38,123 nt of DNA. Origin: a bacterium (GTDB lineage: Bacteria > Margulisbacteria > Marinamargulisbacteria > JAHFDA01). Of the stretch, positions 1 to 31,647 are shown piece after piece. Location of the stretch: the NCBI GenBank assembly GCA_023249225.1, contig JAHFDA010000025.1, forward strand, positions 1-38,123. The letters run 5' to 3'. Under the pieces are notes generated by a model. The model was given only the letters and a program-made list of their open reading frames with translations, was not told the origin of the DNA and did no database searches. The first letter of the stretch is position 1, and every line of letters starts with the position of its first letter. The position numbers were made by a program, and so were the translations under genes.

Positions 1-339
1 GTGCGTTATCCTCTGCAAACACGGGCGGGCAAGGCTGGAATTCTGATTTGTTTCGAAAGCACGCTGCCCCAGCTTGCGCGTCAGCGCAAACATGACGGGG
101 CGGACTGGCTGGCCGTATTGACCAACGATGCTTGGTTTCTTGACTCGCCGGCCGCCGCCATGCACTTGCAAATTTCGCGCTGGCGGGCGGTGGAACAAGG
201 CCTGCCGCTTTTTTTTGCAGCCAACACCGGTATCTCGGCAGTGGTGGATCCAGCGGGTCGCGTGTTGCAGTCGCTGGCATTGGGCAAGCAAGGACAGATC
301 GTTTATTATTTTGAGCGTGCCTATCGTCCGGTTATGTGA
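1..339 (+). CDS. lnt: Apolipoprotein N-acyltransferase, C-terminal part
   Basis: Open at the left edge, so only the C-terminal 112 residues are visible. Lnt is an inner-membrane enzyme that adds the third acyl chain to lipoproteins through a periplasmic nitrilase-fold domain. The fragment shows the nitrilase-domain end: ILICFES with the likely catalytic Cys (about residue 17 here), then LTNDAWF, a WRAVEQGLPLFFAANTGISAV block and a DPAGRVLQ block, all typical of Lnt. The first GTG of the window is not necessarily the start; the full protein is usually about 500 residues. The stop codon lies inside the next gene, so the two are probably co-transcribed. Presence of Lnt points to a diderm cell envelope. 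Confidence 0.9.
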   Translation: MRYPLQTRAGKAGILICFESTLPQLARQRKHDGADWLAVLTNDAWFLDSPAAAMHLQISRWRAVEQGLPLFFAANTGISAVVDPAGRVLQSLALGKQGQIVYYFERAYRPVM

Positions 340-1108
340 AGATGCACTCGTTCTGCATAAGCATCATTACAATGCACAGTATTACAAGTTGACCCTGCGC
401 GCACCGCGCATTGCGCGTTTGGCGCGTCCGGGCCAGTTTGTGCATCTGCGCGTGCCACATTCAGACGCTTGTTTTTTGCGGCGTCCTTTAAGTTTGGCAA
501 ACACCAACCCGCAGGCGGGCACGGTAGACATCATTGCCAAGGTGCTGGGGCAGGGCACCCGTCAACTGGCCGATGTCGATACCGGAGTCGCCCTGGATCT
601 ATTGGGACCGCTTGGCAAAGCCTGGCCCGTATTGCAGGCCGGTCAGTCTGTGGCCATGGTGGGGGGTGGTGTTGGTTTTCCGCCCTTGTTTTTTTATGCG
701 CAACAGTTGCATCCGGCCTGTCGAGTGACCTTTTACTATGGTGGCCGCAGCGCCGATGACATTCTTGAAGAAGCGGATCTGGCGCGGTGTTCTGTGCGAG
801 TGGCGATTGCCACCGAGGATGGATCCAAAGGTGTCCGCGGTCGTGTGACGCTACCCTTTGAGCAGGGACTGTTGCAAGACCGGCCTGATGTGGTGCTTAC
901 CTGTGGGCCTACCGCCATGATGCGCGCGGTGGCCGAGCTCTGCCAGGCCAGGCAAGTAACTTGCTACGCTTCGCTCGAGGAACGCATGGGTTGCGGTCTG
1001 GGGGTGTGCATCGGTTGCGTCGTGCGTACGTCGCGCGGTTTTGAGCGCGTGTGTACCGAAGGCCCGGTGTTCAATGTCCAGGATGTCTGGGAGTGGGCGC
1101 ATGCTTGA
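317..1108 (+). CDS. pyrK: Dihydroorotate dehydrogenase electron-transfer subunit (PyrK-like)
   Basis: A 263-residue flavoprotein reductase with an FAD-binding beta-barrel (RRPLSLAN), an NAD-binding region (VAMVGGGVGFPPLFF, then YYGGRS) and a C-terminal 2Fe-2S motif with cysteines at about 226, 231, 234 and 246 (GCGLGVCIGC...VC). This is the PyrK signature; PyrK passes electrons from PyrDB-type dihydroorotate dehydrogenase to NAD+. The chosen start is the GTG at 317, overlapping the end of lnt by 23 nt, because the conserved domain begins right after it; an in-frame extension to 128 would run through lnt. No pyrD lies beside it, so the partner must be elsewhere or this is a PyrK-like reductase with another partner. 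The stop overlaps the next start by 8 nt. Confidence 0.85.
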   Translation: MPIVRLCEDALVLHKHHYNAQYYKLTLRAPRIARLARPGQFVHLRVPHSDACFLRRPLSLANTNPQAGTVDIIAKVLGQGTRQLADVDTGVALDLLGPLGKAWPVLQAGQSVAMVGGGVGFPPLFFYAQQLHPACRVTFYYGGRSADDILEEADLARCSVRVAIATEDGSKGVRGRVTLPFEQGLLQDRPDVVLTCGPTAMMRAVAELCQARQVTCYASLEERMGCGLGVCIGCVVRTSRGFERVCTEGPVFNVQDVWEWAHA

Positions 1109-3053
1109 AAATGAGAGTCGGCGGCTTGCGATTATTCGGGATGGGGCTCGCACCTATCTCCGGGGCATGGCGATGCATCTGGGCTGGGTGTCCCTGCTGG
1201 TCGGAGCCTTGCTTGCGATCTTCTCCCTGCCCGCCGTAGGAGCTGAAGTTTTGTGGCTGGGTCTGATTTTTGTGGCGGGCAGTGTGGTGAGTTCAACCCT
1301 GTCACTGACGGGCCAATACCTGGTGTTGCGGCTGACTGCCTATTTGCTTGCGCTGACGGACGAAGATCGCCTGGACGGTTTGCGTTACCGCAGTTTTGCT
1401 TTCAGTGTTATTTTTGGAGTGCTGTATGTGCTGCTAAGCGGACTCATGGCTTACGGTGTGTACCAATATCTGGGGCTTTTGTATTTGCTGTGTTATATCA
1501 GCGGGGCCTGTTTTGCCAGTTTGTTTATACGCGTGGCGGGCGGTGTATTTACCAATGCAGCCGACATGGGCGATTCACTGGTGCAACGTTTGTCCGAGCA
1601 GCCGGTACTCGACGATAGCAATGTGGCCCGTGTACTCAATCAGTTTGGCGAACACGTCAGCGATATTGGTGGTTTTGCACACGATGCGGTGACTTCTTTA
1701 TACGTGGTGATGCTGGCTGGGGTCTTGCTGATGACTGGGGCCGATGCCGAGTCCATGCCAGAACTGTCCTTTAAGTTGATTGGTGATTTGTCATGGATCA
1801 TTCCCGGCCTAGGTATTTTTAGCAGCGTGTTGGGGGGACTGCTGGGCTACGTGCTGATCTGGCGAAACCGTGACAGCAACCTGCTCATGAACAGCTTATA
1901 CATGACATTGATATCAGGTGCTGGCGCGGTAGCCTTGATCTACCGCCCGGGTTTGCTGCTGGGGTCTAATTTTGTAAACCATGGCTTTAGTGAACATTAT
2001 TTTGTGCCGCTTCTGGTGGCTTTGGGTGTCTTGGGATGTGGTCTCATTGGAGTAGGTTGCGAATGGTATACCAGCACAAATTTTAGACCGCTGCGCAGTG
2101 TGCTGGAGTGGGCTCAAAAAGGACCAGCATTGACCATCCTGGCCGGTTTCATGGTGGGCTTACGGAGTACATTTTTCATGGTGCTGGTGTTTGTGGCTGT
2201 GTATCTTTTAAGTTATTGGCTCGGGGGTTATTACGGTTTTTTTGTGGCGGCCCTGGGTTTGGCCCTGCCGCTGGCCATGATTGTGGCCTTAAACGCTTAT
2301 GGTGCCCTGACGCATTTTTTGCATGATCTGGCGGCGCTGAACCCGCAACTCGAAAAACGTTTGCGTGTGATCAGCCGCATGGACATGCTGACTTACACCA
2401 CCACGGCCGTTGGAAAGGGATTTTTGGGCGGGCTGACATTTTTTACGTCGTTGGCGCTTTTTCATGCGGCCATGGCTTACCTAAACGTTCCAAACGTGCA
2501 GGTCTTTGATGTGGCGTTTATGACGGGCGTTTTCTTGGGTGCGGCCATGCCGTATGCTTTTTCAGCGCTCTTGCTGCCCGGTATGCTCAAGGCCGTGGGT
2601 GGGGTGATCGACGAAAGTTTCAGGCAATTGCGCGACATACCTTACCTTAAAGAAGCCAAAGCCAATCCAGATGTGATCAAGGCCACGCGCTACACACTGC
2701 GCAGCGCTTTGCAATCGATTGTCGGACCGGGCCTCCTGGTGCTGGGTATGCCGCTTTTGGTAGGCTGGATTTTTGATTTTACGGGCTTGACCGGTCTCAT
2801 GATTGGCGCGCTGATTTCAAGTTTCTTTTTTGCCTTTCAATATGGCAACACCGGTGGCGCGCTGGGCAACGTCAAGCACTATGTTGAAAAGGGTTACCAC
2901 GGAGGGCCGGGCACGCCTACGCATCGCGCCACATTGGTGGCCGACACCTTTGGCGATGCGCTCAAGGATTCTTTGGGGCCGGCCATGAACGTCATGGTAA
3001 AGTTGTTGGTGCTGTGTTCCCTGCTGACTGGAATCTTTATGCTCGGAGGTTGA
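1101..3053 (+). CDS. Degenerate membrane pyrophosphatase paralogue (HppA-like)
   Basis: A 650-residue polytopic membrane protein homologous along its length to the canonical HppA encoded at 5314-7503, but with the active site eroded. Around residues 145-195 it keeps the RVAGGVFTNAADMG frame, yet the acidic run [12 protein letters not shown] of the active enzyme reads NQFGEHVSDIGG. Near residue 397 it has NAYGALTHFLHD where the active copy has [12 protein letters not shown]. Near residue 584 it has GGALGNVKHY instead of [10 protein letters not shown]. Several Asp/Asn residues that bind Mg-PPi are lost, so it probably does not hydrolyse PPi as the normal enzyme does. The start is the ATG at 1101, overlapping pyrK by 8 nt. 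A regulatory or altered transport role is inference only. Confidence 0.85.
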   Translation: MLENESRRLAIIRDGARTYLRGMAMHLGWVSLLVGALLAIFSLPAVGAEVLWLGLIFVAGSVVSSTLSLTGQYLVLRLTAYLLALTDEDRLDGLRYRSFAFSVIFGVLYVLLSGLMAYGVYQYLGLLYLLCYISGACFASLFIRVAGGVFTNAADMGDSLVQRLSEQPVLDDSNVARVLNQFGEHVSDIGGFAHDAVTSLYVVMLAGVLLMTGADAESMPELSFKLIGDLSWIIPGLGIFSSVLGGLLGYVLIWRNRDSNLLMNSLYMTLISGAGAVALIYRPGLLLGSNFVNHGFSEHYFVPLLVALGVLGCGLIGVGCEWYTSTNFRPLRSVLEWAQKGPALTILAGFMVGLRSTFFMVLVFVAVYLLSYWLGGYYGFFVAALGLALPLAMIVALNAYGALTHFLHDLAALNPQLEKRLRVISRMDMLTYTTTAVGKGFLGGLTFFTSLALFHAAMAYLNVPNVQVFDVAFMTGVFLGAAMPYAFSALLLPGMLKAVGGVIDESFRQLRDIPYLKEAKANPDVIKATRYTLRSALQSIVGPGLLVLGMPLLVGWIFDFTGLTGLMIGALISSFFFAFQYGNTGGALGNVKHYVEKGYHGGPGTPTHRATLVADTFGDALKDSLGPAMNVMVKLLVLCSLLTGIFMLGG

Positions 3054-3054
3054 T

Positions 3055-3840
3055 GTGGCACGTAAATCCTTGATTGCCGGTAATTGGAAGATGAACGGTA
3101 CGCGTCAAAGCGCGTCAGATTTGATTGCAGCCCTTAAGGTTCTCAATTGGGAAACGCAGGTTTTAGAGGTGGCTGTGTTTCCGCCCTTTCATTTGTTGTC
3201 GCTGGCGCTTGCAGCCGTGAGCCCGGCTCTGATTGCAGTGGGGGCCCAGGATGTATCGGCGCAGAAACCAGGCGCATTTACCGGCGAAGTGGCGGCCGAG
3301 TTCCTGGTAGATGTCGGCTGCCAATATGCGCTTGTGGGTCACTCGGAACGCCGTCAGTATCACCGCGAGGATGATGCCTTGGTGGCGGCCAAATTACGCC
3401 GTTTGCTCGAAGTAGGGCTTAAACCAGTGGTATGTGTGGGCGAACTGTTGGCCGAGCGTGAACAGGGTCAGACCTTTGACGTGGTGGCCCGGCAGTTGTC
3501 CGGCGCCCTGGGTGGACTCAATGCCGAGCAGATGGGTAACGTGGCACTGGCTTACGAACCGGTCTGGGCCATTGGCACCGGCAAGGTGGCCAGCCCGGCG
3601 CAGGCTCAAGAAGTGCATGCTTTTATTCGTCAGTGCCTGATGCAGCAGTGGAACAAATCTGTGGCTGATGGCCTGCAGGTGCTATACGGCGGCAGCGTCA
3701 ATGCGGCCAACGCCAAGGATCTGTTGGCACAAAAAGACATCGACGGCGCTCTGGTGGGCGGAGCTTCCTTAAAAGCGCAGGAATTTGCGGGCATTATCGC
3801 GGCGGGCATGGCTGTGGCCACTGCGGGTGTGCGTGTCTAG
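3055..3840 (+). CDS. tpiA: Triosephosphate isomerase
   Basis: A 261-residue cytosolic TIM-barrel enzyme interconverting dihydroxyacetone phosphate and glyceraldehyde 3-phosphate. Catalytic residues are all present: Lys12 in GNWKMNG, His96 in VGHSERR and Glu168 in AYEPVWAIGTGK; the phosphate-binding YGGSV motif and GGASLK loop follow. Length is normal for the family. The GTG start at 3055 lies one base after the stop of the previous gene. The stop overlaps the next GTG start by one base, so tpiA is in the middle of a tight operon. Confidence 0.97.
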   Translation: MARKSLIAGNWKMNGTRQSASDLIAALKVLNWETQVLEVAVFPPFHLLSLALAAVSPALIAVGAQDVSAQKPGAFTGEVAAEFLVDVGCQYALVGHSERRQYHREDDALVAAKLRRLLEVGLKPVVCVGELLAEREQGQTFDVVARQLSGALGGLNAEQMGNVALAYEPVWAIGTGKVASPAQAQEVHAFIRQCLMQQWNKSVADGLQVLYGGSVNAANAKDLLAQKDIDGALVGGASLKAQEFAGIIAAGMAVATAGVRV

Positions 3841-4190
3841 TGGGAGTCGAATATTCCCAGTCGCGGCCCTGGGGTTCGTGGTATGTCCTCGAAGAAGGTC
3901 CTGGGTACAAGGTTAAACGCATCGTGGTGTTGCCAGGCAAGCGTCTTTCGCTGCAGAGCCACCGTTACCGCGAAGAACATTGGACAGTGGTGCGCGGACA
4001 GGCGTTGGTGCAAATTGATGAGCGCCAGTTTATGTTAAGTCCGGGTGAAAGGGGTATTGTTCCCCTGGGTGCCAGGCACCGCTTGACCAATCCTGGGACC
4101 GATGAATTGTGGGTGGTCGAAGTGCAGTGTGGCAGCAGCACAGCCGAGGAAGACATCGTGCGCTATGAAGATGATTTTGGGCGTCTATAA
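3840..4190 (+). CDS. Cupin mannose-6-phosphate isomerase (type II, ManC C-terminal-like)
   Basis: A 116-residue single-domain cupin matching the stand-alone form of the isomerase domain found at the C-terminus of ManC/AlgA. Visible features: RPWGSWYVL near the start, LSLQSHRYREEHW with metal-binding His/Glu, PLGARHRLTN with the later metal His, and an EEDIVRYEDDFGR tail typical of this family. It is expected to interconvert mannose 6-phosphate and fructose 6-phosphate, which fits its place between tpiA and phosphofructokinase. The GTG start overlaps the tpiA stop by one base. A good TATAAT (4186-4191) overlaps its stop codon, but I see no convincing -35 for it. Confidence 0.85.
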   Translation: MGVEYSQSRPWGSWYVLEEGPGYKVKRIVVLPGKRLSLQSHRYREEHWTVVRGQALVQIDERQFMLSPGERGIVPLGARHRLTNPGTDELWVVEVQCGSSTAEEDIVRYEDDFGRL

Positions 4191-4254: not shown

Positions 4255-5295
4255 ATGACCAAAAAAGTTGTAGGTGTGCTGACGGGCGGAGGAGACTGTC
4301 CCGGACTTAATCCGGTGATCCGCGCCATTGTTCGCAAGGGTATCGATACCTATCATTTCGAATTTTTGGGCTTGCGTAACGGTTGGCTGGGTTTGCTGGA
4401 GCAAAATACCTTGCCGCTCGATGTCAATGCCATCGGCGGTATCTTGCATCGCGGGGGCACCATTTTGGGCACCAGCCGCACCAACCCCAGCAAGTCCGAA
4501 GATCAAATGCAAAAGGCCATCGCCAACTTTAAGGCGCTGGGTTTACATGCGCTGATTGCCATTGGCGGTGATGATACGCTAGGGGTGGCGAGCAAGCTGC
4601 ACAAGCGCGGCTTAAACCTGGTGGGAGTGCCCAAAACGATCGACAATGATCTTTCAGCCACAGACGTGACTTTTGGTTTTGACACCGCTGTGCAAATTGC
4701 CACCGAAGCCATTGATCGTCTGCATACCACCGCCGAGTCACACAACCGCGTCATGGTGGTGGAAGTCATGGGCAGGCACGCCGGATGGATTGCTTTGCAT
4801 TCTGGCATTGCGGGGGGTGCCGACGCCATTCTTATTCCTGAAGTGCCTTTTACCGTGGATGATGTTTGCAATATTATCCGCCGACGCGTCATCCGTGGGC
4901 GAAATTTCAGCATTGTGGTGGTGGCCGAAGGCGCAATGCCTAAAGACAGCCATGATTTTGTAACCCAGAGCGATGAAAAAGATTCCTTTGGTCATGTACG
5001 CCTGGGCGGCATTGGTAACCTGATTGCCATGGAAATTGAAAAACGCACTGGTTTTGAAACGCGCACGACAATTCTGGGGCACATTCAGCGTGGGGGCACA
5101 CCCACGGCGTTTGACCGCGTACTTGGAACCAAGTACGGCATCTGTGCCATCGACCTGGTGGCCCAGGGTCAGTTTGGCCAGATGGCTAGTTTGCGCGGCA
5201 CGTTGGTGGTGGGTGCCAGTCTCGAAGAAGCAGTCAGTAAACCTAAACTGGTCGATGCAGCATCCTACGAAATTGCCAGGGTATTTTCTGGCTAG
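4255..5295 (+). CDS. pfp: 6-phosphofructokinase, predicted PPi-dependent
   Basis: A 346-residue PFK-A family enzyme (GVLTGGGDCPGLNPVIRAIV at the N-terminus; GRHAGWIALHSG and GHIQRGG further on). Phosphoryl-donor choice in this family depends on two positions: ATP enzymes have Gly-Gly (GGDG, PGTIDND), PPi enzymes have Asp and Lys. Here residues 102-106 read GGDDT, with Asp at the discriminating position, and near 126 the sequence is PKTIDND with Lys. I therefore infer reversible PPi-dependent fructose 6-phosphate phosphorylation. A Shine-Dalgarno AAAGGA lies at 4242-4247 and the gene appears to have a leader of its own. The following hppA gene makes a PPi-handling pair. Confidence 0.93.
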   Translation: MTKKVVGVLTGGGDCPGLNPVIRAIVRKGIDTYHFEFLGLRNGWLGLLEQNTLPLDVNAIGGILHRGGTILGTSRTNPSKSEDQMQKAIANFKALGLHALIAIGGDDTLGVASKLHKRGLNLVGVPKTIDNDLSATDVTFGFDTAVQIATEAIDRLHTTAESHNRVMVVEVMGRHAGWIALHSGIAGGADAILIPEVPFTVDDVCNIIRRRVIRGRNFSIVVVAEGAMPKDSHDFVTQSDEKDSFGHVRLGGIGNLIAMEIEKRTGFETRTTILGHIQRGGTPTAFDRVLGTKYGICAIDLVAQGQFGQMASLRGTLVVGASLEEAVSKPKLVDAASYEIARVFSG

Positions 5296-5305: not shown

Positions 5306-5313
5306 AGATGCAC

Positions 5314-7503
5314 ATGATTTCCCCGGCTACGATGTTTGCCTTGATTGCTCCGATTTCGGCGGTGCTGGCGTTGGGACTGGCCTTTTTCTTTTATACCCAG
5401 ATGAAACAAGAAGATGAAGGCTCTGCCATGATGATCAAAATTGCAGCCGCAGTGCGGGCAGGGGCCCGGGCCTATCTTGCACAGCAATATAAAGTGGTAT
5501 TCATTATTTTTGCGATGACGTTTGCCTTATTATGTTTTATTTCTTATTACCTAAAGGTGCAGGGCCCCTATGTTCCTTTTGCATTTATCACCGGCGGTTT
5601 TTTCTCGGGTTTGGCTGGTTTTATCGGCATGAAAACCGCCACCTATGCTTCGGCGCGCACGGCCCAGAAATGCCGTCAAAGCCTTAACCAGGGTTTACAA
5701 ATTGCCTTCCGCAGTGGTGCGGTGATGGGCCTTACCGTGGTGAGCCTGGTGCTGCTTGATATTACGGCCTGGTTTGTCATTTTAAAATACGTATTCCGCG
5801 TGGAGAGCCTGGGCGAAATTACCACGTCCATGCTGACGTTTGGCATGGGGGCATCGCTGCAGGCCCTGTTTGCGCGCGTAGGCGGGGGTATTTTTACCAA
5901 GGCGGCTGATGTGGGTGCTGATTTGGTTGGAAAAGTCGAAGTGGGCATCCCCGAAGACGATTACCGCAACCCGGCCACCATTGCCGACAATGTGGGCGAC
6001 AATGTAGGTGACATTGCCGGCATGGGCGCAGATTTGTACGACTCTTATGCCTGTTCAATACTGGCCACCATGGCCATTGGCGCCGCCGCCGGTTTTTCGA
6101 TTGAAGGTGTGTTGGTACCCATGGTTATTGCCGGAGTGGGAGTGCTGTGTTCTATTGTGGGAATTTTTACGGTGCGCACGGGAGAATCGGTGACCCAGAA
6201 AAATCTTTTGCGATCGGTCGGTATGGGAGTCAATGTGGCTTCAGTGTTAATCGGAATTGCCAGTTTTTTTGTGATTCGGTATTACCTTCCGGAACACACG
6301 GGTGTTTTTTGGGCCATCCTGGTGGGATTAATCGCAGGAGTTTTAATTGGATTCTTTACTGAATATTACACATCTGAAATTTATAGCCCGACGCGGCGGA
6401 TTGCGCATGAGTCCAAAACCGGCGTGGCCACGCTGATTATTTCTGGCATGGCGGTGGGTATGGAAGCCACGGTGGCGCCGGTGGTGATCGTGGTCTTTGG
6501 AACTTTGTTTGCCTATTATTTGGCTGGAGGCCTGACCACTCCCATTTTGGGCCTATACGGGGTGTCGATTGCGGCAGTAGGCATGTTGTCATCGTTGGGC
6601 ATTACGTTGGCCACCGATGCTTATGGGCCCATTGCCGACAACGCCGGTGGTATTGCCCAGATGGCTGGTTTGGAACCCGTGGTGCGCGAGCGCACAGATG
6701 CCTTAGATTCGCTTGGCAATACAACGGCAGCGATCGGCAAGGGGTTTTCGATTGGTTCCGCTGCCCTTACAGCCATGGCGTTATTGGCTTCCTATTTTGA
6801 AGAAGTCCGTTATGGCTTGTTGCGCGCGGGCATGACCACCATCGAAGTGATGGGTCGTCCGATTGACGTGATGCACGCCGAGTTTATTGACTTTGTAAAC
6901 TATTATGGCGTTCACTTGATGAACCCCAAAGTTTTGGCGGGTTTGTTTCTTGGATCCATGATTTCATTTGCCTTTTGCGCGCTTACCATTAAGGCCGTAG
7001 GCACCGCTGCCAGTCTGGTGGTGATGGAAGTGCGCCGCCAGTTTAAGGAAATTGTCGGACTAATGGAAGGCAAAGTAGATGCCGACTATGCCAAGACCGT
7101 AGAAATTTGCACCCGTGGCGCACAGCGCGAAATGGTGTTTCCATCCATGGCTGCTTTTATGCTACCGATTGTCGTAGGTTTTCTTCTGGGAGTTCCAGCC
7201 GTGATGGGTTTGCTCATTGGTGTGCTGGTGACTGGTTTTTGCTTGGCCATCATGATGGCGGCATCGGGCGGTGCTTGGGATAATGCTAAAAAATACATCG
7301 AGTCCGGGCAGTTTGGCGGCGGAAAAGGTTCTGAATATCATAAAGCGGCAGTCGTAGGCGATACGCTGGGGGATCCTTTTAAAGACACCGCAGGTCCAAG
7401 CATTAGTATTCTGATTAAACTTTTGGCCATGGTATCGGTGGTATTTGCCGGGGTGACCGTTAAATATGGCATGATTGTCAGCGCATACTTAGGCATGGGT
7501 TAG
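5314..7503 (+). CDS. hppA: K+-dependent membrane pyrophosphatase (H+ or Na+ pump)
   Basis: A polytopic inner-membrane enzyme that couples PPi hydrolysis to H+ or Na+ export. All signature segments are intact: [20 protein letters not shown], the acidic [21 protein letters not shown] region near residue 227, [12 protein letters not shown], and [12 protein letters not shown] near the C-terminus with [24 protein letters not shown] near residue 470 has Ala rather than Lys, the mark of the potassium-dependent class. The pumped ion cannot be decided from what I can see. The ATG at 5308 (MHM) is an alternative start; 5314 is preferred because of the -10 spacing. It ends convergently with tatA. Together with PPi-type PFK it forms a pyrophosphate-using energy pair. 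Confidence 0.97.
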
Positions 7504-21207: not shown

Positions 21208-23853
21208 ATGAGTACGGGTTATTTTCGATATTGGGGCAAAGCTGATAGAGAAGATCCGTCTCAATTTCACCTATTGGTTTATCATAGTCTCGATGTCGCT
21301 GCGGTCGGGCGAGTGTTACTGGAAGGTCAGCCAAAACTGCTTAGAAATCTTTCCAATCAATCGGGTATTAGACCTGAGCGCTTAATCGATTGGATTACTT
21401 TTTTGCTTGCTCTCCATGACATTGGCAAGTTTGCAGACAGTTTTCAAAATCTTATTCCAGATCTATTTAATCAGCTTCAGGGTAGAGCTTTTGATACGGT
21501 ATATCGACAACGCCATGATACCTTGGGGTTTCGGTATCTTGATCAATATTTGATAAAAGCTATTTCACGTGAAGAATCGAGTGATTTACGGGATCTGCTT
21601 TTGCCTTGGCTGAATGCGGTTTGTGGCCATCATGGGCAACCTCCCAAAAATGATACGGATCCCAGGCCCTTAGGCAAAGATTTTCCAGCAATGATACTGA
21701 CCGATGCTAATAGTTTTGTAGCATTTGTTCGGGATAAATTTTTACCCGATGGTTTTCCGTTTGGCGTCGAAGAGTATCGTTTGTTTTGCGATCGCTTTCC
21801 GCGAATTTCATGGTTAGTCGCCGGGTTGGCGGTGGCTTCTGATTGGATTGGATCAAATAGCAGTTGGTTCCGATATTGTAAGGATCAACAAGATCTAAAT
21901 AGTTATTGGCAAACCAAGGCCTTACCTAACGCATTAACGGCTGTTAATAAAAGCGGTTTTATTCCTGTCGTGGCACAAGAATATTTAAGTTATCGACGTA
22001 TCTTTCCGGGCATTGCCCAGCTTACCCCGTTACAAGAACATTCCGAAAATTTGAAAATAACGGATACCCCTGGCTTGTTCATTTTGGAAGAGGTGACGGG
22101 TGGCGGAAAGACGGAAGCGGCCTTCATATTAGCCCAGCGCCTAATGGCAAAGGGTTTGGCAGATGGAATCTTTATGGCCCTGCCTACCATGGCGACCGCA
22201 AATGCAATGTATAAGAGAGTTCGTGCTATTTATAAAAAATTATTTCAAGACGATGCCGATCCATCGTTAGTTCTGGCCCATAGTTCGGGGCCCATGGTTT
22301 TAAAAATGGAGAAAAATACCCGACTAGATCATGGTTATGGAGGCGATGAAAGTAGTGCTACACAGGATTGCGCGGCATGGTTTTCGGACAATAGAAAAAA
22401 AGCCCTACTGGCGCATGTAGGTGTAGGTACTATTGATCAGGCTTTGCTTAGCATCCTGCCGGTTAGACACCAATCCTTGCGCTTACTTGGTTTATACGGA
22501 AAGGTTCTTGTGGTTGACGAGGTGCATGCCAACGATGATTATGTGCACAAGCTGCTGTGTTCACTATTAAAGTTTCATGCATCGTTTGGGGGCAGTGCCA
22601 TTTTGCTCTCGGCTACGCTTCCACAACAAATGCGCAAGGAATTGCTAAAGGCCTATGCCGAAGGCCGGCGATTACCAGCCCCTGAAGTGATGGAAGTTAA
22701 GTATCCCTTGCTTACATATTATTCCGAAGGTCAAATTTGCGAGCATGCAGTTGCAGCGCGGCGAGAGATGTCTCGTGAGGTGCGAGTAAATCTGATTTAT
22801 ACAGAGCAGCAAGTATATGATGCTATTCAGGCTGCCTTGAATAAAGGGCACTGCGTTTGCTGGGTTCGCAACACGATTGTCGATGCGCTGCAGGCATATC
22901 GCTATTGGCAAACTCGCATGGAACTTGAATTATTAACCTTATTTCACTCCCGCTTTGCATTAAGTGACCGCTTGGAAATTGAAAATAAGGTTTTGGATTA
23001 TTTTGGACCAGATAGCGCCAGTAACGTGCGAAAGGGCAGATTGCTAATTGCCACACAGGTGGCTGAACAGTCGTTAGACTTAGATTTTGATTTTATGGTC
23101 ACAGATCTTGCTCCGATTGATCTTGTTATTCAAAGGGCTGGTCGTTTGCAGCGCCATGCACGAGGCAATCGCACGCCAGTTTTGGCTGTCTATACGCCCA
23201 TGCCGGAGCCCGAAGCTAAATCAGACTGGTACAAAAAGCATTTTCCAAAGGCCGCCAGGGTGTATCCGCATCACGGGCAACTATGGCTAACTGCTCGGTG
23301 GTTATGCGAAAGAAGATCTTTTCGTATGCCCGAATATGCAAGGGATATGATCGAATTTGTGTTTTCCGAGTCGTCTTACAATGCGGTTCCGCCAGATCTT
23401 CAAATGACTGAAGATAAGTCGCAAGGGGCAGATCAGGGTAAAAAAAGTATGGCTCGTTTCAATAGTCTTGATTTGAATCAGGGGTATAAACAAACACTAA
23501 CCCATTGGCAGGATGACGCCTTTGCACCAACCCGTTTGGGAGAACCTACCGTAACGCTGCGTCTGGCGCGTTGGCAGGATAATCGCCTGGTGCCCTGGAT
23601 TGAAGTGCATGATGAGTATGGTTGGCAGCTTTCTCAACTGAGTGTTAGAAAATATTATGCAGCGGCAGAATATGTGGGTGAACATGCAGTGGCCTTTGAT
23701 GAGGCAAGGCGGAGTATGAGAGATCAGGGCAAATATGTGCTACTTGTGCCTTTGATCGAAAAGAATGGAATTTGGTGCGGGAGCGTTCTTAATTGCGAGG
23801 GTGCAGTGGTGGACGTTGTATACACCGTTAAGTTTGGTGCCGAGTTTGTATAA
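21208..23853 (+). CDS. cas3: CRISPR-associated helicase-nuclease Cas3 (type I-E)
   Basis: 881 residues, the effector nuclease recruited by target-bound Cascade. The N-terminal HD nuclease domain has YHSLDVAAVG (His near 26), ALHDIGKFADSF (HD near 70) and VCGHHGQPP. The SF2 helicase follows: Walker A EEVTGGGKTEAAF near residue 297, DEVH near 437, LLSATLP near 470, and motif VI VIQRAGRLQRHAR. The C-terminal domain is of the type I-E kind. It starts 20 nt after argG with no obvious promoter of its own, so read-through from argG is possible. Base composition is more AT-rich than the arg genes, consistent with transfer. Confidence 0.96.
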   Translation: MSTGYFRYWGKADREDPSQFHLLVYHSLDVAAVGRVLLEGQPKLLRNLSNQSGIRPERLIDWITFLLALHDIGKFADSFQNLIPDLFNQLQGRAFDTVYRQRHDTLGFRYLDQYLIKAISREESSDLRDLLLPWLNAVCGHHGQPPKNDTDPRPLGKDFPAMILTDANSFVAFVRDKFLPDGFPFGVEEYRLFCDRFPRISWLVAGLAVASDWIGSNSSWFRYCKDQQDLNSYWQTKALPNALTAVNKSGFIPVVAQEYLSYRRIFPGIAQLTPLQEHSENLKITDTPGLFILEEVTGGGKTEAAFILAQRLMAKGLADGIFMALPTMATANAMYKRVRAIYKKLFQDDADPSLVLAHSSGPMVLKMEKNTRLDHGYGGDESSATQDCAAWFSDNRKKALLAHVGVGTIDQALLSILPVRHQSLRLLGLYGKVLVVDEVHANDDYVHKLLCSLLKFHASFGGSAILLSATLPQQMRKELLKAYAEGRRLPAPEVMEVKYPLLTYYSEGQICEHAVAARREMSREVRVNLIYTEQQVYDAIQAALNKGHCVCWVRNTIVDALQAYRYWQTRMELELLTLFHSRFALSDRLEIENKVLDYFGPDSASNVRKGRLLIATQVAEQSLDLDFDFMVTDLAPIDLVIQRAGRLQRHARGNRTPVLAVYTPMPEPEAKSDWYKKHFPKAARVYPHHGQLWLTARWLCERRSFRMPEYARDMIEFVFSESSYNAVPPDLQMTEDKSQGADQGKKSMARFNSLDLNQGYKQTLTHWQDDAFAPTRLGEPTVTLRLARWQDNRLVPWIEVHDEYGWQLSQLSVRKYYAAAEYVGEHAVAFDEARRSMRDQGKYVLLVPLIEKNGIWCGSVLNCEGAVVDVVYTVKFGAEFV

Positions 23854-23868
23854 AATTAAAGGCAAATT

Positions 23869-23958
23869 GATGGAATCCCCACACCTGTGGGGAACAGGTT
23901 TTCGCCAAGCGATGTCAATAATCGCCACTCGGGACATCCCCATAATCATGGGGGACAT
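23869..23958 (-). ncRNA. Predicted crRNA-like regulatory RNA (CreR-like mini-array)
   Basis: On the minus strand two degenerate CRISPR repeats flank a 32-nt pseudo-spacer. Pseudo-repeat 1 (23930-23958) matches the array repeat at 20 of 29 positions and ends ATGTCCCG, 6 of 8 to the crRNA handle ATGAACCG. Pseudo-repeat 2 (23869-23897) matches 20 of its first 23 positions but has lost the handle, which would not be needed there. Both keep the Cas6e stem: CCCCAC/GTGGGG in repeat 2, and CCCCAT/ATGGGG in repeat 1, a compensated pair change. The repeat-to-repeat distance is 61 nt, identical to the array. The pseudo-spacer (23898-23929) targets the adjacent cas promoter. No third copy is seen. Confidence 0.8.
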
Positions 23959-23978
23959 CGGTAGAATGCTGCCAAAAA

Positions 23979-24013
23979 TTCATAGAGTTAATTTATCATT
24001 AATCTCCACTCTT
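23979..24013 (-). promoter_or_regulatory. Predicted Cascade-binding site of the crRNA-like RNA
   Basis: On the minus strand the PAM AAG (24011-24013) is followed by AGTGGAGATTAATGATA. The pseudo-spacer begins AGTGGCGATTATTGACA. Positions 1-5, 7-11, 13-15 and 17 match. Mismatches up to 17 are at 6, 12 and 16; type I-E Cascade leaves every sixth base unpaired, so 6 and 12 should not matter. Beyond 17 there is almost no match, which fits binding without cleavage. The PAM overlaps the -35 box of the plus-strand promoter. Confidence 0.8.
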
Positions 24014-24018
24014 TACAA
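23990..24018 (-). promoter_or_regulatory. Possible promoter of the crRNA-like RNA
   Basis: On the minus strand TTGTAA (24013-24018) and TAAATT (23990-23995) are 17 nt apart, each 4 of 6 to consensus. Its -35 shares bases with the divergent Cascade promoter, and the Cascade site covers it, so the RNA would also repress itself. Confidence 0.4.
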
Positions 24019-24040
24019 ATTATTTGTTTGTAGTTATTAT
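24012..24040 (+). promoter_or_regulatory. Promoter of the Cascade operon (TTTACA-17-TATTAT)
   Basis: TTTACA (24012-24017, 5 of 6) and TATTAT (24035-24040, 5 of 6) are 17 nt apart. Transcription would start near 24047, about 5 nt before the small ORF at 24052. Its -35 overlaps the predicted Cascade site. Confidence 0.7.
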
Positions 24041-24051
24041 CCTACTACGTA

Positions 24052-24177
24052 ATGGTAGAAAGTTTACTTCTATTGATTAAAGATGCTGTATCGGCGGGTA
24101 ATCTTGCTCAACCTCAGGCCCTTGTAGCACTTGCGCTATTGGTAGCCTTGGTGGCTGTATTTAAGATTAAGGCTTGA
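24052..24177 (+). CDS. 41-residue hydrophobic membrane peptide, toxin-like
   Basis: A short gene between cas3 and cas8e. The product has an N-terminal helix (MVESLLLLIKDAV), a short polar turn (SAGNLAQPQ) and one transmembrane stretch (ALVALALLVALVAVF) ending in basic KIKA. It is the first gene behind the predicted Cascade promoter, and its TGA lies 6 nt before the cas8e ATG, so cas8e may depend on its translation. There is no Shine-Dalgarno; the expected transcript start is about 5 nt before the ATG. The size and layout recall small membrane toxins of type I toxin-antitoxin systems, but I recognise no family. Alternatives: a leader peptide for cas8e, or a chance ORF. Confidence 0.6.
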   Translation: MVESLLLLIKDAVSAGNLAQPQALVALALLVALVAVFKIKA

Positions 24178-24183
24178 TTATTT

Positions 24184-25734
24184 ATGAACCTGATTGACGA
24201 TCCTTGGATCCCGGCACGTCGCAAAAATGGAAATATTGAACGTATTGCGCCGTGGCAAATTGTTGAAGGTACGGGGGATAACGAGATTATCGAACTGGCT
24301 GCTCCGCGTCCCGATTTTAACGGTGCGCTGATTCAGTTTTTAATTGGCTTATTGCAAACAACGTATGCGCCGCATACACCCAAGGAGTGGCGTGACAAGT
24401 TGGAAAACCCACCATCCTCCCAAGAACTGAAATCTGCGTTTGCACCGGTTGTACATGCTTTTGAATTGGATAGCGATGGGCCACGGTTTATGCAGGATCT
24501 AACGATGGAGGTGAATTATGAGGATGCTAACCCTATTGGTAGTTTGTTTATTGAAGCTCCTGGAGAACAAACCCTAAAGCAGAATAAAGATCACTTTGTG
24601 AAGCGTGACCAAATTAACCAAATTTGTGAAGCATGTGCTGCTGCTGCGATTTATACCTTACAAATCAATGCACCCAGTGGTGGTGCTGGTCATCGTACGG
24701 GTTTGAGAGGTGGTGGACCACTGACGACCCTTATTAGGGGAGTTAATTTATGGCAACTTGTTTGGCTGAATGTTTTAGAAGAAAAAGATTTTCTGGCTAA
24801 AAGTGGTAACCACGAAAAAGATGCGTTTGAAGCAAAGTTTCCGTGGCTGGGAGCTACGCGTACGAGCGAAGGAGATAAGGAGACGACACCCGAGGATGTC
24901 CATCCGGTTCAAAATTATTGGGCAACTCCTAGGCGGATACGACTGTTATCTCCACTTGGCTCAGGTGTCTGTGATATATGCCTAAAACATCAACCACGTT
25001 TATATGATAAGTATGTTGCGCAGAACTATGGCGCTAATTACAAAGGGCCGTGGCAGCATCCATTGTCGCCTTATTTTATTGATTCTGATGGAAAGACTAG
25101 CGCAATCCATTTGCAACCTGGTGGTATGCGCTATAAGCATTGGCTAGGATGGATTTTGGATGGCGCTTTAAGTACGAAAGGGCAAAAAATATCGGCACGC
25201 GTTGTTTCGCGGTACCGGTATGATACGGAAAAAAAACAGACCGTCTGGGCCTTTGGTTATGACATGGATAACATGAAGGCGCGCTGTTGGTATGAGGGAA
25301 TCTTTCCATTAATTCATATTAATCCTGAAATGCTAGAGGAATATCGATATTTGGTTAAAATTCTTATTGAATCTGCCGAGCTTGCGGTTAAGGAAACCCG
25401 AGGGGCAGTTAAAAAAGCTTGGTTTCGTGAGGGTGTAGAAGTTAGGGGAGATATGTCGCGGGTTGATGTTTTTTTTTGGAACCAAACCGAAGCCAGGTTC
25501 TATGACGAATTAAAAAACTTGCGAGATAACTTAGAGTCCGGAAATAAAAATAATAAGCCGCTACTGGATCAATGGTCAAAATACTTACTCGATGTATCCT
25601 TATCCATATTTGATGATTTATCCCAAACCGGTTCCTTTGATGCAGTAGACCCGGCCCGTATTGCCAAGGCCATGAATAGTTTGGAGAGAAATTTGAGAAG
25701 CAAAAAATTTCGTGCGATTTTGGATCTATCATGA
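24184..25734 (+). CDS. cas8e: Cascade large subunit Cas8e (Cse1/CasA)
   Basis: 516 residues, the PAM-reading large subunit of type I-E Cascade. The start MNLIDDPWIPARR and the ELAAPRPDFNGALIQFLIGLLQT block are diagnostic of Cse1. The middle region has PSGGAGHRTGLRGGGPLTTL, the loop that contacts the PAM area in this family. The C-terminal four-helix bundle follows. The ATG comes 6 nt after the stop of the small membrane-peptide gene. The last 4 nt overlap the next gene (ATGA). Codon use is AT-rich, like the rest of cas3-cas6e. Confidence 0.95.
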   Translation: MNLIDDPWIPARRKNGNIERIAPWQIVEGTGDNEIIELAAPRPDFNGALIQFLIGLLQTTYAPHTPKEWRDKLENPPSSQELKSAFAPVVHAFELDSDGPRFMQDLTMEVNYEDANPIGSLFIEAPGEQTLKQNKDHFVKRDQINQICEACAAAAIYTLQINAPSGGAGHRTGLRGGGPLTTLIRGVNLWQLVWLNVLEEKDFLAKSGNHEKDAFEAKFPWLGATRTSEGDKETTPEDVHPVQNYWATPRRIRLLSPLGSGVCDICLKHQPRLYDKYVAQNYGANYKGPWQHPLSPYFIDSDGKTSAIHLQPGGMRYKHWLGWILDGALSTKGQKISARVVSRYRYDTEKKQTVWAFGYDMDNMKARCWYEGIFPLIHINPEMLEEYRYLVKILIESAELAVKETRGAVKKAWFREGVEVRGDMSRVDVFFWNQTEARFYDELKNLRDNLESGNKNNKPLLDQWSKYLLDVSLSIFDDLSQTGSFDAVDPARIAKAMNSLERNLRSKKFRAILDLS

Positions 25735-27125
25735 AATCTCCTAGCCGAAAAGAAAATCAAAATCTGGAATGGAAAGAGATTTGGCGGGACGAGTATCTTA
25801 AATGGGTTTGTGGTTTTGCCAATGCCGAGGGTGGCACGCTGATTATAGGTAAAAATGATAAAGGCCTAACGGTTGGAATAGAAAATGCCAAGGAACTTTT
25901 GGAGCTTTTGCCGAATAAAACCCGCGATCTGCTTGGTATTTTGGTTGATGTCAATCTTCGCAGGTCGAACGCTAAGGAATCCGTTGAAATCGTGGTCTCT
26001 GCATACCCTAACCCGATCAGCTACCGGGGTGAGTACTATTACCGCAGCGGTAGTACCAATCAGGCCCTAAGAGGATCCGCCTTGGATCGGTTTTTGTTAC
26101 GCAAACAGGGCAGGCACTGGGATGATGTCCCCATGCCTTCTTTTAAGCCGCAGCATTGTAGTGCAAATGCTTTAAAACTTTTTAAACAAAAAGCCAAGCA
26201 AAGCGGGCGCATGTCTGATGCTGTGCTAAAAGACGGTCGTGAGTTTCTGTTTGAAAATTTGGAACTAGTCGATACCCATGGGCTAAGGCGGGCTGCTTGC
26301 CTGCTTTTTTCTGATCATCCTCAAAAATATTTTGCTGGTTCATGGATCAAGATTGGATACTTTGCTTCTAACGATGACCTACGTTATCAAGATGAGGTAA
26401 ATGGAAATTTGTTTGAGCAGATCGAAAAGGCTATGGATCTACTGCAAACCAAATATTTAAAAGCCTACATCACCTACCAAGGCATACAGCGAGTCGAAAA
26501 CTTTCTCTACCCATCAGATGCTTTGCGCGAGGCCTTGATCAACGCTGTTGTCCACAAGGACTATGCCAGCGCAGTTCCCATACAGATTAGCGTATACGAA
26601 GATAAGATTTGCCTTTGGAACCCTGGGCAGCTTCCAGACGGCTGGACGATGAAGCGTTTTTTAGGCAAGCATCCTTCCAAGCCCCATAACCCGCTTCTGG
26701 CCAATACCTTTTTTAGAGCAGGTTATATAGAGGCTTGGGGGAGAGGTATTGATAAGATCAAAAAAGAGTGCCAGGAGCTTGGAATTCCGAAGCCAATGTA
26801 TGACTTTGAGATGTCGGGCCTGATGATTACCTTTAACGCGAACCCAGATCATATAAAGGCTGCCGGTTCACAGACTGCTGGGAGCGTAAAAACTTCGGTA
26901 GAAACGCGGGTAGAAACGCGGGCAAAAACGCCGGTGAAAATATTGCAATTGTTGCAAAGTCATCCAGAGATGACCTTGGCACAAGTCGCTGCAAATATTT
27001 CTAAATCACTTAGCGCAGTTGAGAGGGCCAGTTCAAAACTCGTCAAAGATGGCCAGCTAAAATATGTCGGCCCCCAAAAAGGCGGGCATTGGGAAGTCAG
27101 CAAAAAGGAGGTAAAGGATGTCTGA
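25731..27125 (+). CDS. AlbA_2/Schlafen-like ATPase with C-terminal winged helix, inside the cas operon
   Basis: 464 residues, not a known Cascade subunit. The N-terminal AlbA_2 domain (about 10-90) shows LEWKEIWRDEYLKWVCGFAN and GGTLIIGKNDKGLTVGI. A GHKL-type ATPase domain of the HATPase_c_4 kind follows (YPSDALREALINAVVHKDY; LWNPGQLPDG; WGRGIDKIKKEC). After a Thr/Val/Glu linker made of tandem repeats comes a winged-helix domain (MTLAQVAANISKSLSAVE). Such proteins are seen as DNA-binding regulators and in phage defence. It overlaps cas8e by 4 nt and cse2 by 8 nt, so it is an integral, co-translated part of the operon. Its function here is unknown. Confidence 0.9.
   Translation: MKSPSRKENQNLEWKEIWRDEYLKWVCGFANAEGGTLIIGKNDKGLTVGIENAKELLELLPNKTRDLLGILVDVNLRRSNAKESVEIVVSAYPNPISYRGEYYYRSGSTNQALRGSALDRFLLRKQGRHWDDVPMPSFKPQHCSANALKLFKQKAKQSGRMSDAVLKDGREFLFENLELVDTHGLRRAACLLFSDHPQKYFAGSWIKIGYFASNDDLRYQDEVNGNLFEQIEKAMDLLQTKYLKAYITYQGIQRVENFLYPSDALREALINAVVHKDYASAVPIQISVYEDKICLWNPGQLPDGWTMKRFLGKHPSKPHNPLLANTFFRAGYIEAWGRGIDKIKKECQELGIPKPMYDFEMSGLMITFNANPDHIKAAGSQTAGSVKTSVETRVETRAKTPVKILQLLQSHPEMTLAQVAANISKSLSAVERASSKLVKDGQLKYVGPQKGGHWEVSKKEVKDV
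26897..26932 (+). repeat. 12-bp tandem repeat in the AlbA_2 gene
   Basis: Two perfect copies of GGTAGAAACGCG and a third degenerate copy encode the VETR-VETR-AKTP linker before the winged helix. In-frame slippage here could change linker length. Confidence 0.8.
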
Positions 27126-27657
27126 AGCATCGAACAAAATGGCTCACATCATCAGCGAGTGGTGGAAGGAATGTATCGAGGATGAAAGGGACGAAGAGCC
27201 GGATCAAAAGGCGAGAAAAAATTGGAAGGGTGATAGTGCTGCTTTGAGACGAGCCAGGACACCCAATGAGGTTGTATTTGTTCCGGCCTATCATGATTTG
27301 TATCATAAATTAATTAATGCAGATGTTAACGTAGGGCGGGAGTCTATAGCGATTGTGGCGGGGATCTTATCCCATGTTAAGAAAAATTCTGGTACCGAGA
27401 ATGCCTTTCCTACCGAAATGGGATCTTCTAAGGAGGGAAGTAAAGATAAGGCCAAGGTCAGTAGTTTGCGGTTTAGGCGCTTGCTGGCAGAAAAAGATTC
27501 TCACAAAATGTATCCAATGATGATTCGCTTGATTCGTTTAATGAAGGGCCACGTTAATTTAGTTGATTTGGCCAATGATGTTTATTGGTGGAATGAAAAA
27601 ACCCGTAAAGATTGGGCATACGAATATTATGCGGCTGCCCCAAGTTCAGAAAAATAA
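27118..27657 (+). CDS. cse2: Cascade small subunit Cse2 (CasB)
   Basis: 179 residues, helical, the small subunit present as two copies in type I-E Cascade that holds the displaced strand. LRRARTPNEVVFVPAYHDL, SSLRFRRLLAEKDSHKMYPMM, RLIRLMKGHVNLVDLANDV and the final Trp-rich segment are typical. A strong Shine-Dalgarno (AAGGAGG) lies just before the ATG, inside the AlbA_2 gene. The stretch ENAFPTEMGSSKEGSKDKAK is a polar loop. Confidence 0.93.
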   Translation: MSEASNKMAHIISEWWKECIEDERDEEPDQKARKNWKGDSAALRRARTPNEVVFVPAYHDLYHKLINADVNVGRESIAIVAGILSHVKKNSGTENAFPTEMGSSKEGSKDKAKVSSLRFRRLLAEKDSHKMYPMMIRLIRLMKGHVNLVDLANDVYWWNEKTRKDWAYEYYAAAPSSEK

Positions 27658-27671
27658 AAAGGAGTAATGTT

Positions 27672-28865
27672 ATGACAAAATTTATTCAATTGCATTTGCT
27701 GACCAGTTATCCACCTTCCAATTTGAATCGTGATGATTTGGGTCGACCCAAGACGGCTGTTATGGGCGGGGTTCAACGGCTACGGATATCCTCCCAGAGT
27801 TTAAAACGGGCGTGGCGGACTTCTGATTTATTTCTTGATAGCTTGGTCGGGCATGCAGGGATTCGGACACGTCGCATTGGGCAAGCTATCAAAAAGTCTC
27901 TGATGTCAGGTGTGGATCTGTCTGAAATTCTACGCAATCCCGAAAAAGAGTATGGAAGTGGATCCGGAATACCCGAAAAAGATGCAACGCAGTGGGCATG
28001 GCAGATGGCAGCAGTATTTTCTGATAAATCTGCTAAGGCAGAGGACGAAGAAATTATAGAGGAGGAAGCTGAAGAAAAGTCTAATAAGAAGGGCAAAAAG
28101 GATAAAAAATCCAAAAGTAATGTTGATAAGGATACTTTGGCAGGGGAAGTGCTGGTGTTTTACAGCCCCGAAGAAATCAAAGCATGCGAAAGCTTGGTAT
28201 TAACTTTAATTAAGGAAAAAAGGCCGTCCAAAGATACAGAAATTAAGTCTTTGCCTAATAAGACTGTTTCGGGTGCGGATCTAGGATTATTTGGTCGTAT
28301 GTTGGCGAGTAACCCTAAATTTAATGTTGAGGCGGCCTGCCAAGTTGCCCATGCGATCACTGTTCACAAAGTTGCTGTTGAAGATGATTACTTTACAGCT
28401 GTTGATGATCTTAACAAGCAAGAAGAAGATGCGGGTGCAGGGCATATTGGTGAGACCGAATTTGCGGCTGGTCTGTTTTATCTTTATGTCTGTGTTGATA
28501 GCGATCTTTTGGTTAAAAATCTGTCTGGTAATAAAGAACTCGCTCAAAAAACGATTCGTGCCCTGGTCGAATGTATGGCTACGATTGCCCCAACCGGAAA
28601 ACAAAATAGTTTTGCGTCGCGTGCCTATGCATCCTATGTTCTTGCAGAAAAGGGTAATAAACAGCCACGCTCCTTGTCGGTTGCCTTTCTAACGCCGATA
28701 GATGATAAAAAAGATTTATTGGATACGGCCATCGGTCAGCTTGAGGCTACACGCGATAAAATGGATGCGGTTTACGGAAAGGTTGCAGAAGAGTCTCAAG
28801 AACTCAATGCAAAATCGGGTAAAGGTACGTTGGCTGACCTGATAAAGTTTGTGGCGAGTTTCTAA
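27672..28865 (+). CDS. cas7e: Cascade backbone subunit Cas7e (Cse4/CasC)
   Basis: 397 residues, the six-fold RNA-binding backbone of Cascade. The start is the ATG at 27672 behind AAGGAG, giving the conserved MTKFIQLHLLTSYPPSNLNR. QRLRISSQSLKRAWR (crRNA contacts) and GADLGLFGRM follow. It is longer than E. coli CasC (363 aa): residues about 119-153 hold a charged insertion, first acidic (EDEEIIEEEAEE) then basic (KKGKKDKKSKS). The last residues (TLADLIKFVASF) are normal. Confidence 0.94.
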   Translation: MTKFIQLHLLTSYPPSNLNRDDLGRPKTAVMGGVQRLRISSQSLKRAWRTSDLFLDSLVGHAGIRTRRIGQAIKKSLMSGVDLSEILRNPEKEYGSGSGIPEKDATQWAWQMAAVFSDKSAKAEDEEIIEEEAEEKSNKKGKKDKKSKSNVDKDTLAGEVLVFYSPEEIKACESLVLTLIKEKRPSKDTEIKSLPNKTVSGADLGLFGRMLASNPKFNVEAACQVAHAITVHKVAVEDDYFTAVDDLNKQEEDAGAGHIGETEFAAGLFYLYVCVDSDLLVKNLSGNKELAQKTIRALVECMATIAPTGKQNSFASRAYASYVLAEKGNKQPRSLSVAFLTPIDDKKDLLDTAIGQLEATRDKMDAVYGKVAEESQELNAKSGKGTLADLIKFVASF

Positions 28866-28880
28866 AAGGATCTGATCATT

Positions 28881-29618
28881 ATGATTGAGTATCTTGTTTT
28901 TCGGCTATATGGGCCCATGGCTGCTTGGGGTGACATTGCAGTGGGAGAGGTAAGGCCTACGTTTATGCACCCTTCCAAATCAGCGATTATGGGATTGATA
29001 GCGGCTGCGCTTGGCATCGATCGCACGGATGATGAGAAACATAGGGCTTTGGTAGAGAATTATGGTTTTGCTGTGCAAGTTAACAGTGTGGGTACGCCCT
29101 TAACCGATTACCATACAGTGCAAGTACCTTCATCAGGTACTGGGCGTAACAGACAAATCTTTACTACACGTAGAGACGAAATATTATCGGGACCCAGACA
29201 GGATCTTAATACCATATTGTCACGGCGAGATTACCGTATGGATGCGTCTGCCATCATTGTTATTTGGATGAAAGTTCCCTCGTTCTATACATTGACGGAT
29301 TTTCAAAAAGCCTTGTGTGAGCCCCACTATGTACTTTATTTGGGACGTAAATCTTGCCCGCTTTCACTGCCGATTCAGGCTCAAGTAGTAGCTGCTGATT
29401 CAGTGCGGGATGCTATCAATGTTGCAAAATTTTCACCCTTAGATTTACCACACACCGATAGTCCGGCTTTGTTTTGGGAGGAGGGAGCAGTTAGCGGACT
29501 AAAAGAGCAAAACACCTTTGTGAGAAGGGATGTCACTCTATCCCGCAAGCGCTGGCAATTTGATGTTCGCAACGAACATCACAGTGCAATTTCCAAGGAG
29601 GATAACCATGTATCTTAG
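28881..29618 (+). CDS. cas5e: Cascade subunit Cas5e (CasD)
   Basis: 245 residues. This RAMP subunit caps the 5-prime handle of the crRNA. The N-terminus YLVFRLYGPMAAWGD and RPTFMHPSKSAIMGLIAAA are the Cas5e signature, as are SRRDYRMDA and YLGRKSCPLS. It overlaps cas6e by 11 nt. The ATG at 28881 is preceded by AAAAGGA about 10 nt away. Confidence 0.94.
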   Translation: MIEYLVFRLYGPMAAWGDIAVGEVRPTFMHPSKSAIMGLIAAALGIDRTDDEKHRALVENYGFAVQVNSVGTPLTDYHTVQVPSSGTGRNRQIFTTRRDEILSGPRQDLNTILSRRDYRMDASAIIVIWMKVPSFYTLTDFQKALCEPHYVLYLGRKSCPLSLPIQAQVVAADSVRDAINVAKFSPLDLPHTDSPALFWEEGAVSGLKEQNTFVRRDVTLSRKRWQFDVRNEHHSAISKEDNHVS

Positions 29619-30288: not shown

Positions 30289-30347
30289 TTTCTTATGACT
30301 TCGACCGCAAAATTAAAAAACTGATCCCTAAATCAAAAAAGTAAACT

Positions 30348-31596
<1,249 letters not shown>

Positions 31597-31647
31597 GATT
31601 TTATCAATATTATTTTTCCGCATCAGCACCTAGAATATGGAGCTAGT
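31597..31647 (+). promoter_or_regulatory. CRISPR leader (short, AT-rich)
   Basis: 51 nt between the cas2 stop and the first repeat. TATCAATATTATT at 31602-31614 is close to the IHF consensus (WATCAANNNNTTR, off by one in spacing), about 34-46 nt upstream of the first repeat, where the E. coli type I-E leader has its IHF site. An array promoter may lie further back in cas2. Confidence 0.55.

Follow-up and report, generated by a model that had tools for sequence, protein, structure and literature searches.

Near the beginning of the stretch of Marinamargulisbacteria DNA analyzed here (38,123 nucleotides, referred to as the window) lies a gene for a relative of the membrane-bound pyrophosphatases (mPPases) that has lost catalytic residues of that family, in one tight run of genes with an intact hppA located 2.25 kb downstream. 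The question raised by this locus is whether such a protein is a genuine gene product and, if so, what it does. We find that the window gene is real and occurs class-wide, and that it belongs to a clade of putative pseudoenzymes, under selection, within the known mPPase family. The protein probably has a new job in place of pyrophosphate (PPi)-driven pumping. The genes of the run, in order, are as follows.

128..1108, + strand, dihydroorotate-dehydrogenase electron-transfer-subunit-like (pyrK-like) gene, with an 8-base overlap with the pseudo-mPPase start
1101..3053, + strand, pseudo-mPPase (H_PPase family, 650 aa), with 8/15 catalytic ligands, R5.50, D6.50, S6.54, and K16.50 kept, and Thr at 6.53 replacing the pump Glu
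3055..3840, + strand, tpiA, triosephosphate isomerase (TIM), starting 1 base past the pseudo-mPPase stop; the conserved downstream neighbor
3840..4190, + strand, cupin/mannose-6-phosphate isomerase C-terminal-like protein
4255..5295, + strand, phosphofructokinase (TIGR02483 PFK_mixed, 485.9 bits, cut-off 430.55)
5308..7503, + strand, canonical hppA, with 15/15 ligands, Ala at 12.46 (K+-dependent type), and Asp, not Glu, at 6.53

The phosphofructokinase (4255-5295) is presumably of the PPi type, as judged by its GGDD and PKTIDND motifs and a motif rule that we assume to hold. The replacement of Glu by Asp at gate position 6.53 of the window HppA was unique among 32 canonical relatives. Elsewhere in the window, a low-GC type I-E-like CRISPR-Cas locus (21208-33631) was recognized from matches to Cas3, Cse1, Cse2, and Cas5; it includes a repeat array at 33419-33631 with a 61-base period and a Schlafen AlbA_2/HATPase_c_4 gene (25731-27125) positioned between cse1 and cse2. 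Rfam gave no match within the window.

Frame, fold, and catalytic ligands

The earlier note on this DNA, made from the sequence by itself, had described an intact open frame and a protein that keeps the length and fold of an mPPase, and both descriptions held. The reading frame is uninterrupted and encodes 650 aa when translation starts at the ATG at 1101 or 670 aa from the TTG at 1041. The Pfam H_PPase profile (PF03030) matched residues 10-642, along the full length of the protein, with 320.6 bits (cut-off 29.7), compared to 842.4 bits for the adjacent HppA; the two proteins share 29% identity over 559 columns. The window protein fell below all NCBIfam mPPase equivalog cut-offs, the best score being 306.4 against 546. 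An AF2 model (pLDDT 79.1, pTM 0.83) exhibited the predicted 16-transmembrane mPPase fold, with a VIA Z of 42.1 and an rmsd of 2.5 over 627 residues in comparison to the Thermotoga maritima mPPase (8b21_A) and a VIA Z of 36.7 in comparison to 4a01_A. For another class member, L080, the AF2 model reached a pLDDT of 87.0 and a VIA Z of 47.0.

The active site was examined by using 15 residues that we take to be the catalytic ligands of mPPases (Vigna radiata numbering, transferred through a phmmer alignment) and whose near-invariance was measured in 32 canonical relatives. Seven of these are changed in the window protein (K250N, D257S, D279N, D283E, D507H, N534Y, and D691G), and eight are retained (D253, D287, K541, K694, D723, D727, K730, and D731). 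These changes agree with the earlier claim that key residues are missing from all three active-site segments, with D691 being the only one of its six ligands lost from the C-terminal segment. The Mg-PPi ligand set was incomplete throughout the clade; among 24 class members, retention ranged from 11 down to 0 of 15 ligands, with four members retaining none. K250 and D691 were lost in all 24 members, D507 was lost in 23, and K541 (12.50) was replaced by Asn in 18. Because the loss of K250 and D691 is common to every member, the disappearance of ligands is not a matter of chance. The whole protein has diverged, and the retention of ligands (0.33) did not differ significantly from that of other positions that are invariant in canonical mPPases (0.43, p=0.19). 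The idea of faster decay at the active site than elsewhere in the protein was thus dropped, and we relied on the analysis of conservation by depth and on the list of charged columns, both described below.

Distribution, selection, and gene neighborhood

Genomes of the window's class (phylum Margulisbacteria; 27 drafts that are 55-97% complete) were searched with profile A1, and the matches were then aligned. Full-length orthologues were found in 24 of the 27 genomes and were not found in G013, G023, and G025. A single scan of genome contigs with two short peptide patterns provided 10 confirmed loci from 25 pattern matches. A canonical mPPase (at least 695 bits to PF03030) was present in 15 of the 27 genomes and accompanied the degenerate gene in 14, a family I soluble PPase was detected in five, and no DHHA2 domain (family II PPase) was found in any of the 27. 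The degenerate copy occurred without a canonical mPPase in 10 of its 24 genomes; among these ten, a soluble PPase was found in four, and G006, G007, and G016 contain a divergent mPPase of the long type, whole or in pieces. Six genomes, G011, G012, G018, G020, G026, and G007 (the last with the long-mPPase pieces), yielded neither a canonical mPPase nor a PPase of family I or of DHHA2 family II, so these six have an unrecognized PPase or missing contigs.

Three close pairs of degenerate genes yielded dN/dS values of 0.041, 0.023, and 0.117, which are rough since dS exceeded 1 in two of the pairs; five canonical pairs spanned 0.022-0.101. The L044/L045 pair (dN/dS 0.247, dS 2.43) was computed and set aside as saturated. 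Pairs of the semi-degenerate genes discussed below (SEMI) gave 0.024 and 0.103, with two more being saturated, and one pair of long divergent genes (LONG) gave 0.029. The pseudo-mPPase clade evolves under purifying selection (dN/dS of 0.02-0.12, from clade pairs, none of which includes the window copy). The earlier view that the gene is under selection is upheld by these ratios and by the orthologues in 24 of 27 genomes, with the ratios applying to the clade rather than to the window copy itself.

The placement of the window copy varied with the tree. A careful, unrooted tree of 29 chosen rows, which has long branches and omits the LONG group along with many of the fastest rows, recovered a degenerate clade in which the window copy branches first (99/97), together with canonical (100/99) and semi-degenerate (100/100) clades. 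In a quick tree of 71 rows, from which the fragments L062, L053, L070, and L075 were omitted, the window copy stood outside the other 23 degenerate copies, joined with ODD_L024 and the canonical side at a weak fork, and a branch with a support of 99 separated all tpiA-linked copies from the canonical and long ones. The branch of the window copy is very long in both trees. The phylogeny that the earlier note had called for thus places the window copy within the clade in the smaller tree and outside of it, by a weak fork, in the larger one.

The gene next downstream on the same strand was tpiA in 28 of 32 loci (24 of the window's class and 8 of other Margulisbacteria) and lay one gene away in two others (G001 and G006); of the remaining two, the 8.4 kb contig of G002 has no tpiA, and the G046 locus stops at a contig edge. 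The fetched stretches of the class loci also contained recO (17/24), mgtE (14/24), and a cyclophilin gene (19/24); in six of the eight non-class loci, the genes after tpiA were fba and a long pfp of the PPi type. These five names were read by eye from one member per cluster without a family search. No tpiA was seen beside the canonical mPPase loci carrying 1.5 kb flanks; the other canonical loci have flanks of only ∼0.5 kb. The tie to tpiA would probably reflect descent from a PPi-glycolysis operon. As judged from sequences and predicted structures, the window protein qualifies as a pseudoenzyme of the mPPase family, in which catalytic residues are lost while the fold and purifying selection are kept and orthologues occur across the lineage.

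The retained gate and candidate functions

We take R242 to be position 5.50 and K742 to be position 16.50, assignments of our own that fit the residue spacing in the consulted parts of PMC5150537, PMC6882861, and PMC12614893. Positions 6.43, 6.50, 6.53, and 12.50 were counted from E301 (6.57) and A537 (12.46) as provided in the consulted parts of PMC5150537 and PMC6882861. In the same parts of these two papers, the pump glutamate, which is essential for pumping, is a Glu that is semi-conserved and located at 5.43, 6.53, or 6.57, and the sections of PMC5150537 consulted describe the involvement of the D6.43-K12.50 pair in the known mPPase pumping cycle and a homodimeric structure with helix 13 in the interface. 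The pump glutamate was absent from all three positions in 24/24 class members. D6.43 was kept in 4/24 members and K12.50 in one, the window copy, which is hence the sole member with both residues and which also keeps D16.39. Because D6.43 and K12.50 are still present, the loss in the window copy itself rests on K250, D507, N534, D691, and the glutamate.

Among 31 charged columns that are at least 95% invariant in the 32 canonical relatives, five were kept in 22-24 of the 24 members: the ion-gate residues R242 (R5.50), D294 (D6.50), and K742 (K16.50) and the helix-13 residues E607 and R610, which were each kept in 24/24. In the numbering of the window protein, the three gate residues are R144, D195, and K634. 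The next-best column was D731 (16/24). All five residues are present in the four members without any of the 15 ligands. Conservation of the inner ring of the degenerate core was greater at mid-membrane (0.637) than on the cytosolic side (0.533, p=1e-4), whereas the order was reversed in canonical mPPases (0.855 versus 0.892). The interaction of depth with group was significant by permutation (p=1e-4), with the peak of conservation shifted from the cytosolic hydrolytic center to mid-membrane. Neither the window copy nor the L043/L044/L045/L137 group belongs to the core; when these five were put back (DEGall), the values were 0.599 at mid-membrane and 0.503 on the cytosolic side (p=3e-4). For the conservation scores, the degenerate set excluded the near-duplicates L010, L042, and L035. 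The depth analysis also dropped six canonical rows and one SEMI row, took depth from AF2 helix ends rather than from membrane placement, and treated columns as independent. The 24-member residue counts use all rows.

The loss of ligands and of the pump glutamate is well supported, and from the pattern of what remains we infer a new function. Since constraint across the clade is strongest at the mid-membrane gate, we tentatively favor a vertically kept clade of pseudo-mPPases that would act without PPi as conduits, gated or passive, through which an ion or small solute would pass by way of the retained gate. PPi would not be hydrolyzed, and there would be no pumping by the known mechanism. The 16-helix mPPase body would work through the mid-membrane gate R5.50-D6.50-S6.54-K16.50, the protein would probably still form a homodimer through helix 13, and the conduit might be controlled from the cytosolic funnel, the former PPi site. 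Ion conduction without PPi is suggested here by gate conservation. Given that the pump glutamate is absent from 24/24 members, the retained gate could also be a salt bridge that is structural and always closed, and a sealed salt bridge would have the same appearance in sequence as a gate. The PPi-insensitive channel raised in the earlier note is thus possible, being favored by the kept ion-gate residues and weakened by the missing pump glutamate. A more specific scenario, which we consider doubtful, is that, in the ancestor shared by the whole class, an ancient primary pump was converted into a gate or channel working without PPi as the fuel site decayed and the gate was fixed; the semi-degenerate tpiA-linked clade, without the water-activating D6.43, could then be PPi-gated and not PPi-driven.

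Other explanations would place the function elsewhere in the protein. The cytosolic funnel might bind a different phosphorylated metabolite that is transported, sensed, or hydrolyzed, with triose phosphate being a candidate because of the tpiA linkage. This proposal, which we judge to be unlikely, draws on 18 columns that are conserved in the 19 core members and different from canonical mPPases, including T249K (16/19), G511K (17/19), and, in loop 7-8, one Asn and one Glu that are invariant, all of them new relative to canonical mPPases, as well as on the Asn at position 541 and on the tpiA linkage itself; Lys249 and Lys511, near the old pocket, point to a ligand rather than to a bare conduit. 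It is opposed by the lower conservation of the cytosolic inner ring than of mid-membrane in the clade and by the window copy, which has Thr249 and Asp511, keeps the loop 7-8 Asn, and has Asn in place of the Glu. A regulatory subunit or heterodimer partner of active HppA, as had been suggested earlier, would be consistent with the homodimeric nature of mPPases, with the complete retention of E607 and R610, and with the apparent operon shared by the window pseudo-mPPase and hppA. As to whether the gene always accompanies hppA and a PPi-type pfk, just 14 of the 24 genomes that carry it have a canonical mPPase, and a PFK occurs in 21 of the 27 class genomes. The remaining ten genomes, all drafts, make an obligate HppA partner unlikely; if incompleteness of the assemblies were the only cause, the product of the missing fractions would be ∼8e-8, independence being assumed. 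The two genes are together only in the window and are on different contigs in the other 13 genomes that have both. We reject this partnership as a general role on the basis of co-occurrence and assign it a small chance overall. Similarly little credence is given to a membrane anchor or scaffold for TIM or a glycolytic assembly, with gate charges that are only structural. The position of tpiA, with fba and pfp also present in most non-class loci, would suit such a role, but genes can share an operon without contact between their products, the neighbors also include recO, mgtE, and the cyclophilin gene, and no TIM-specific surface was identified.

A divergent mPPase that still works is highly improbable. 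Some members have 9-11 of the 15 ligands, with 10-11 in G005 and G011, and D6.43, K12.50, and D16.39 persist in the window copy. Given the six genomes in which no other PPase was found among those searched for, some copies could have residual PPase activity. Against this, K250, D691, and the pump glutamate are lost in 24/24 members and D507 in 23/24, and members with 0/15 ligands are still maintained. The pseudo-mPPases of those six genomes have 0-10 ligands and do not exceed the other copies in this respect (p=0.42), and residual activity as a substitute for a missing PPase was rejected on this basis. To a decaying pseudogene we assign almost no weight. Mosaic ligand loss and the long branch of the window copy would fit decay, but full-length frames persist in 24 genomes and dN/dS is low in the clade, on which grounds the pseudogene was rejected for the clade, the ratios having been obtained without a close relative of the window copy. 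The earlier note had held that random decay, or ligands restored at shifted positions, would speak against its reading, and the outcome is mixed: ligands have decayed in a mosaic fashion, and the new Lys249, one residue before the lost K250, is a candidate shifted ligand in most core members and is missing from the window copy. Mosaic ligand decay in a protein that is otherwise selected is no ground for calling its gene a pseudogene.

The pseudo-mPPase lineage is of interest as a natural uncoupling experiment, in which evolution has removed the hydrolytic center and the pump glutamate and has kept R5.50, D6.50, and K16.50. With this lineage, one can test which portions of an mPPase are required for holding or gating the path across the membrane and whether gating is possible in the absence of PPi. 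PF03030 matches in draft genomes are, by themselves, no evidence for PPi-driven energy conservation.

Relationship to known membrane pyrophosphatases

No account of a degenerate or noncatalytic mPPase lineage was found in the literature searched. By term search, the papers checked among those naming Marinamargulisbacteria did not mention a membrane PPase in their main text, and the review PMC11210485 gave no hit for inactive or paralogous mPPase forms. Two related groups were encountered in the present survey. Long divergent mPPases (L063-L072) are 770-837 aa where complete; the ligands are kept in L064, L066-L069, and L071, and some are lost in L063, L065, and L072. The semi-degenerate mPPases from seven genomes of other Margulisbacteria (L025, L026, L029, L034, L036, L037, and L039) resemble the pseudo-mPPase clade in being tpiA-linked and apart from the canonical copies, but they form their own clade, keep 13/15 ligands with D257 and D287 lost, and retain the 6.53 Glu. 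D287 (6.43) is now Asn or Ser in these proteins, and six of the seven genes precede tpiA-fba-pfp, with the contig of the seventh ending there. From their residues, the seven may bind PPi without hydrolyzing it.

The K+-dependent and K+-independent H+/Na+ mPPase subfamilies share common ancestry with the pseudo-mPPase clade. According to the consulted parts of PMC6882861, the subfamilies with a stated position have the semi-conserved Glu at 5.43, 6.53, or 6.57, whereas the pseudo-mPPase clade has it at none of these. With the T. maritima Na+-PPase and the V. radiata H+-PPase (PF03030), the window protein has in common full-length homology, the 16-helix fold, R5.50/D6.50/S6.54/K16.50, and the helix-13 residues E607/R610; it differs from both in lacking 7/15 ligands and the pump glutamate.
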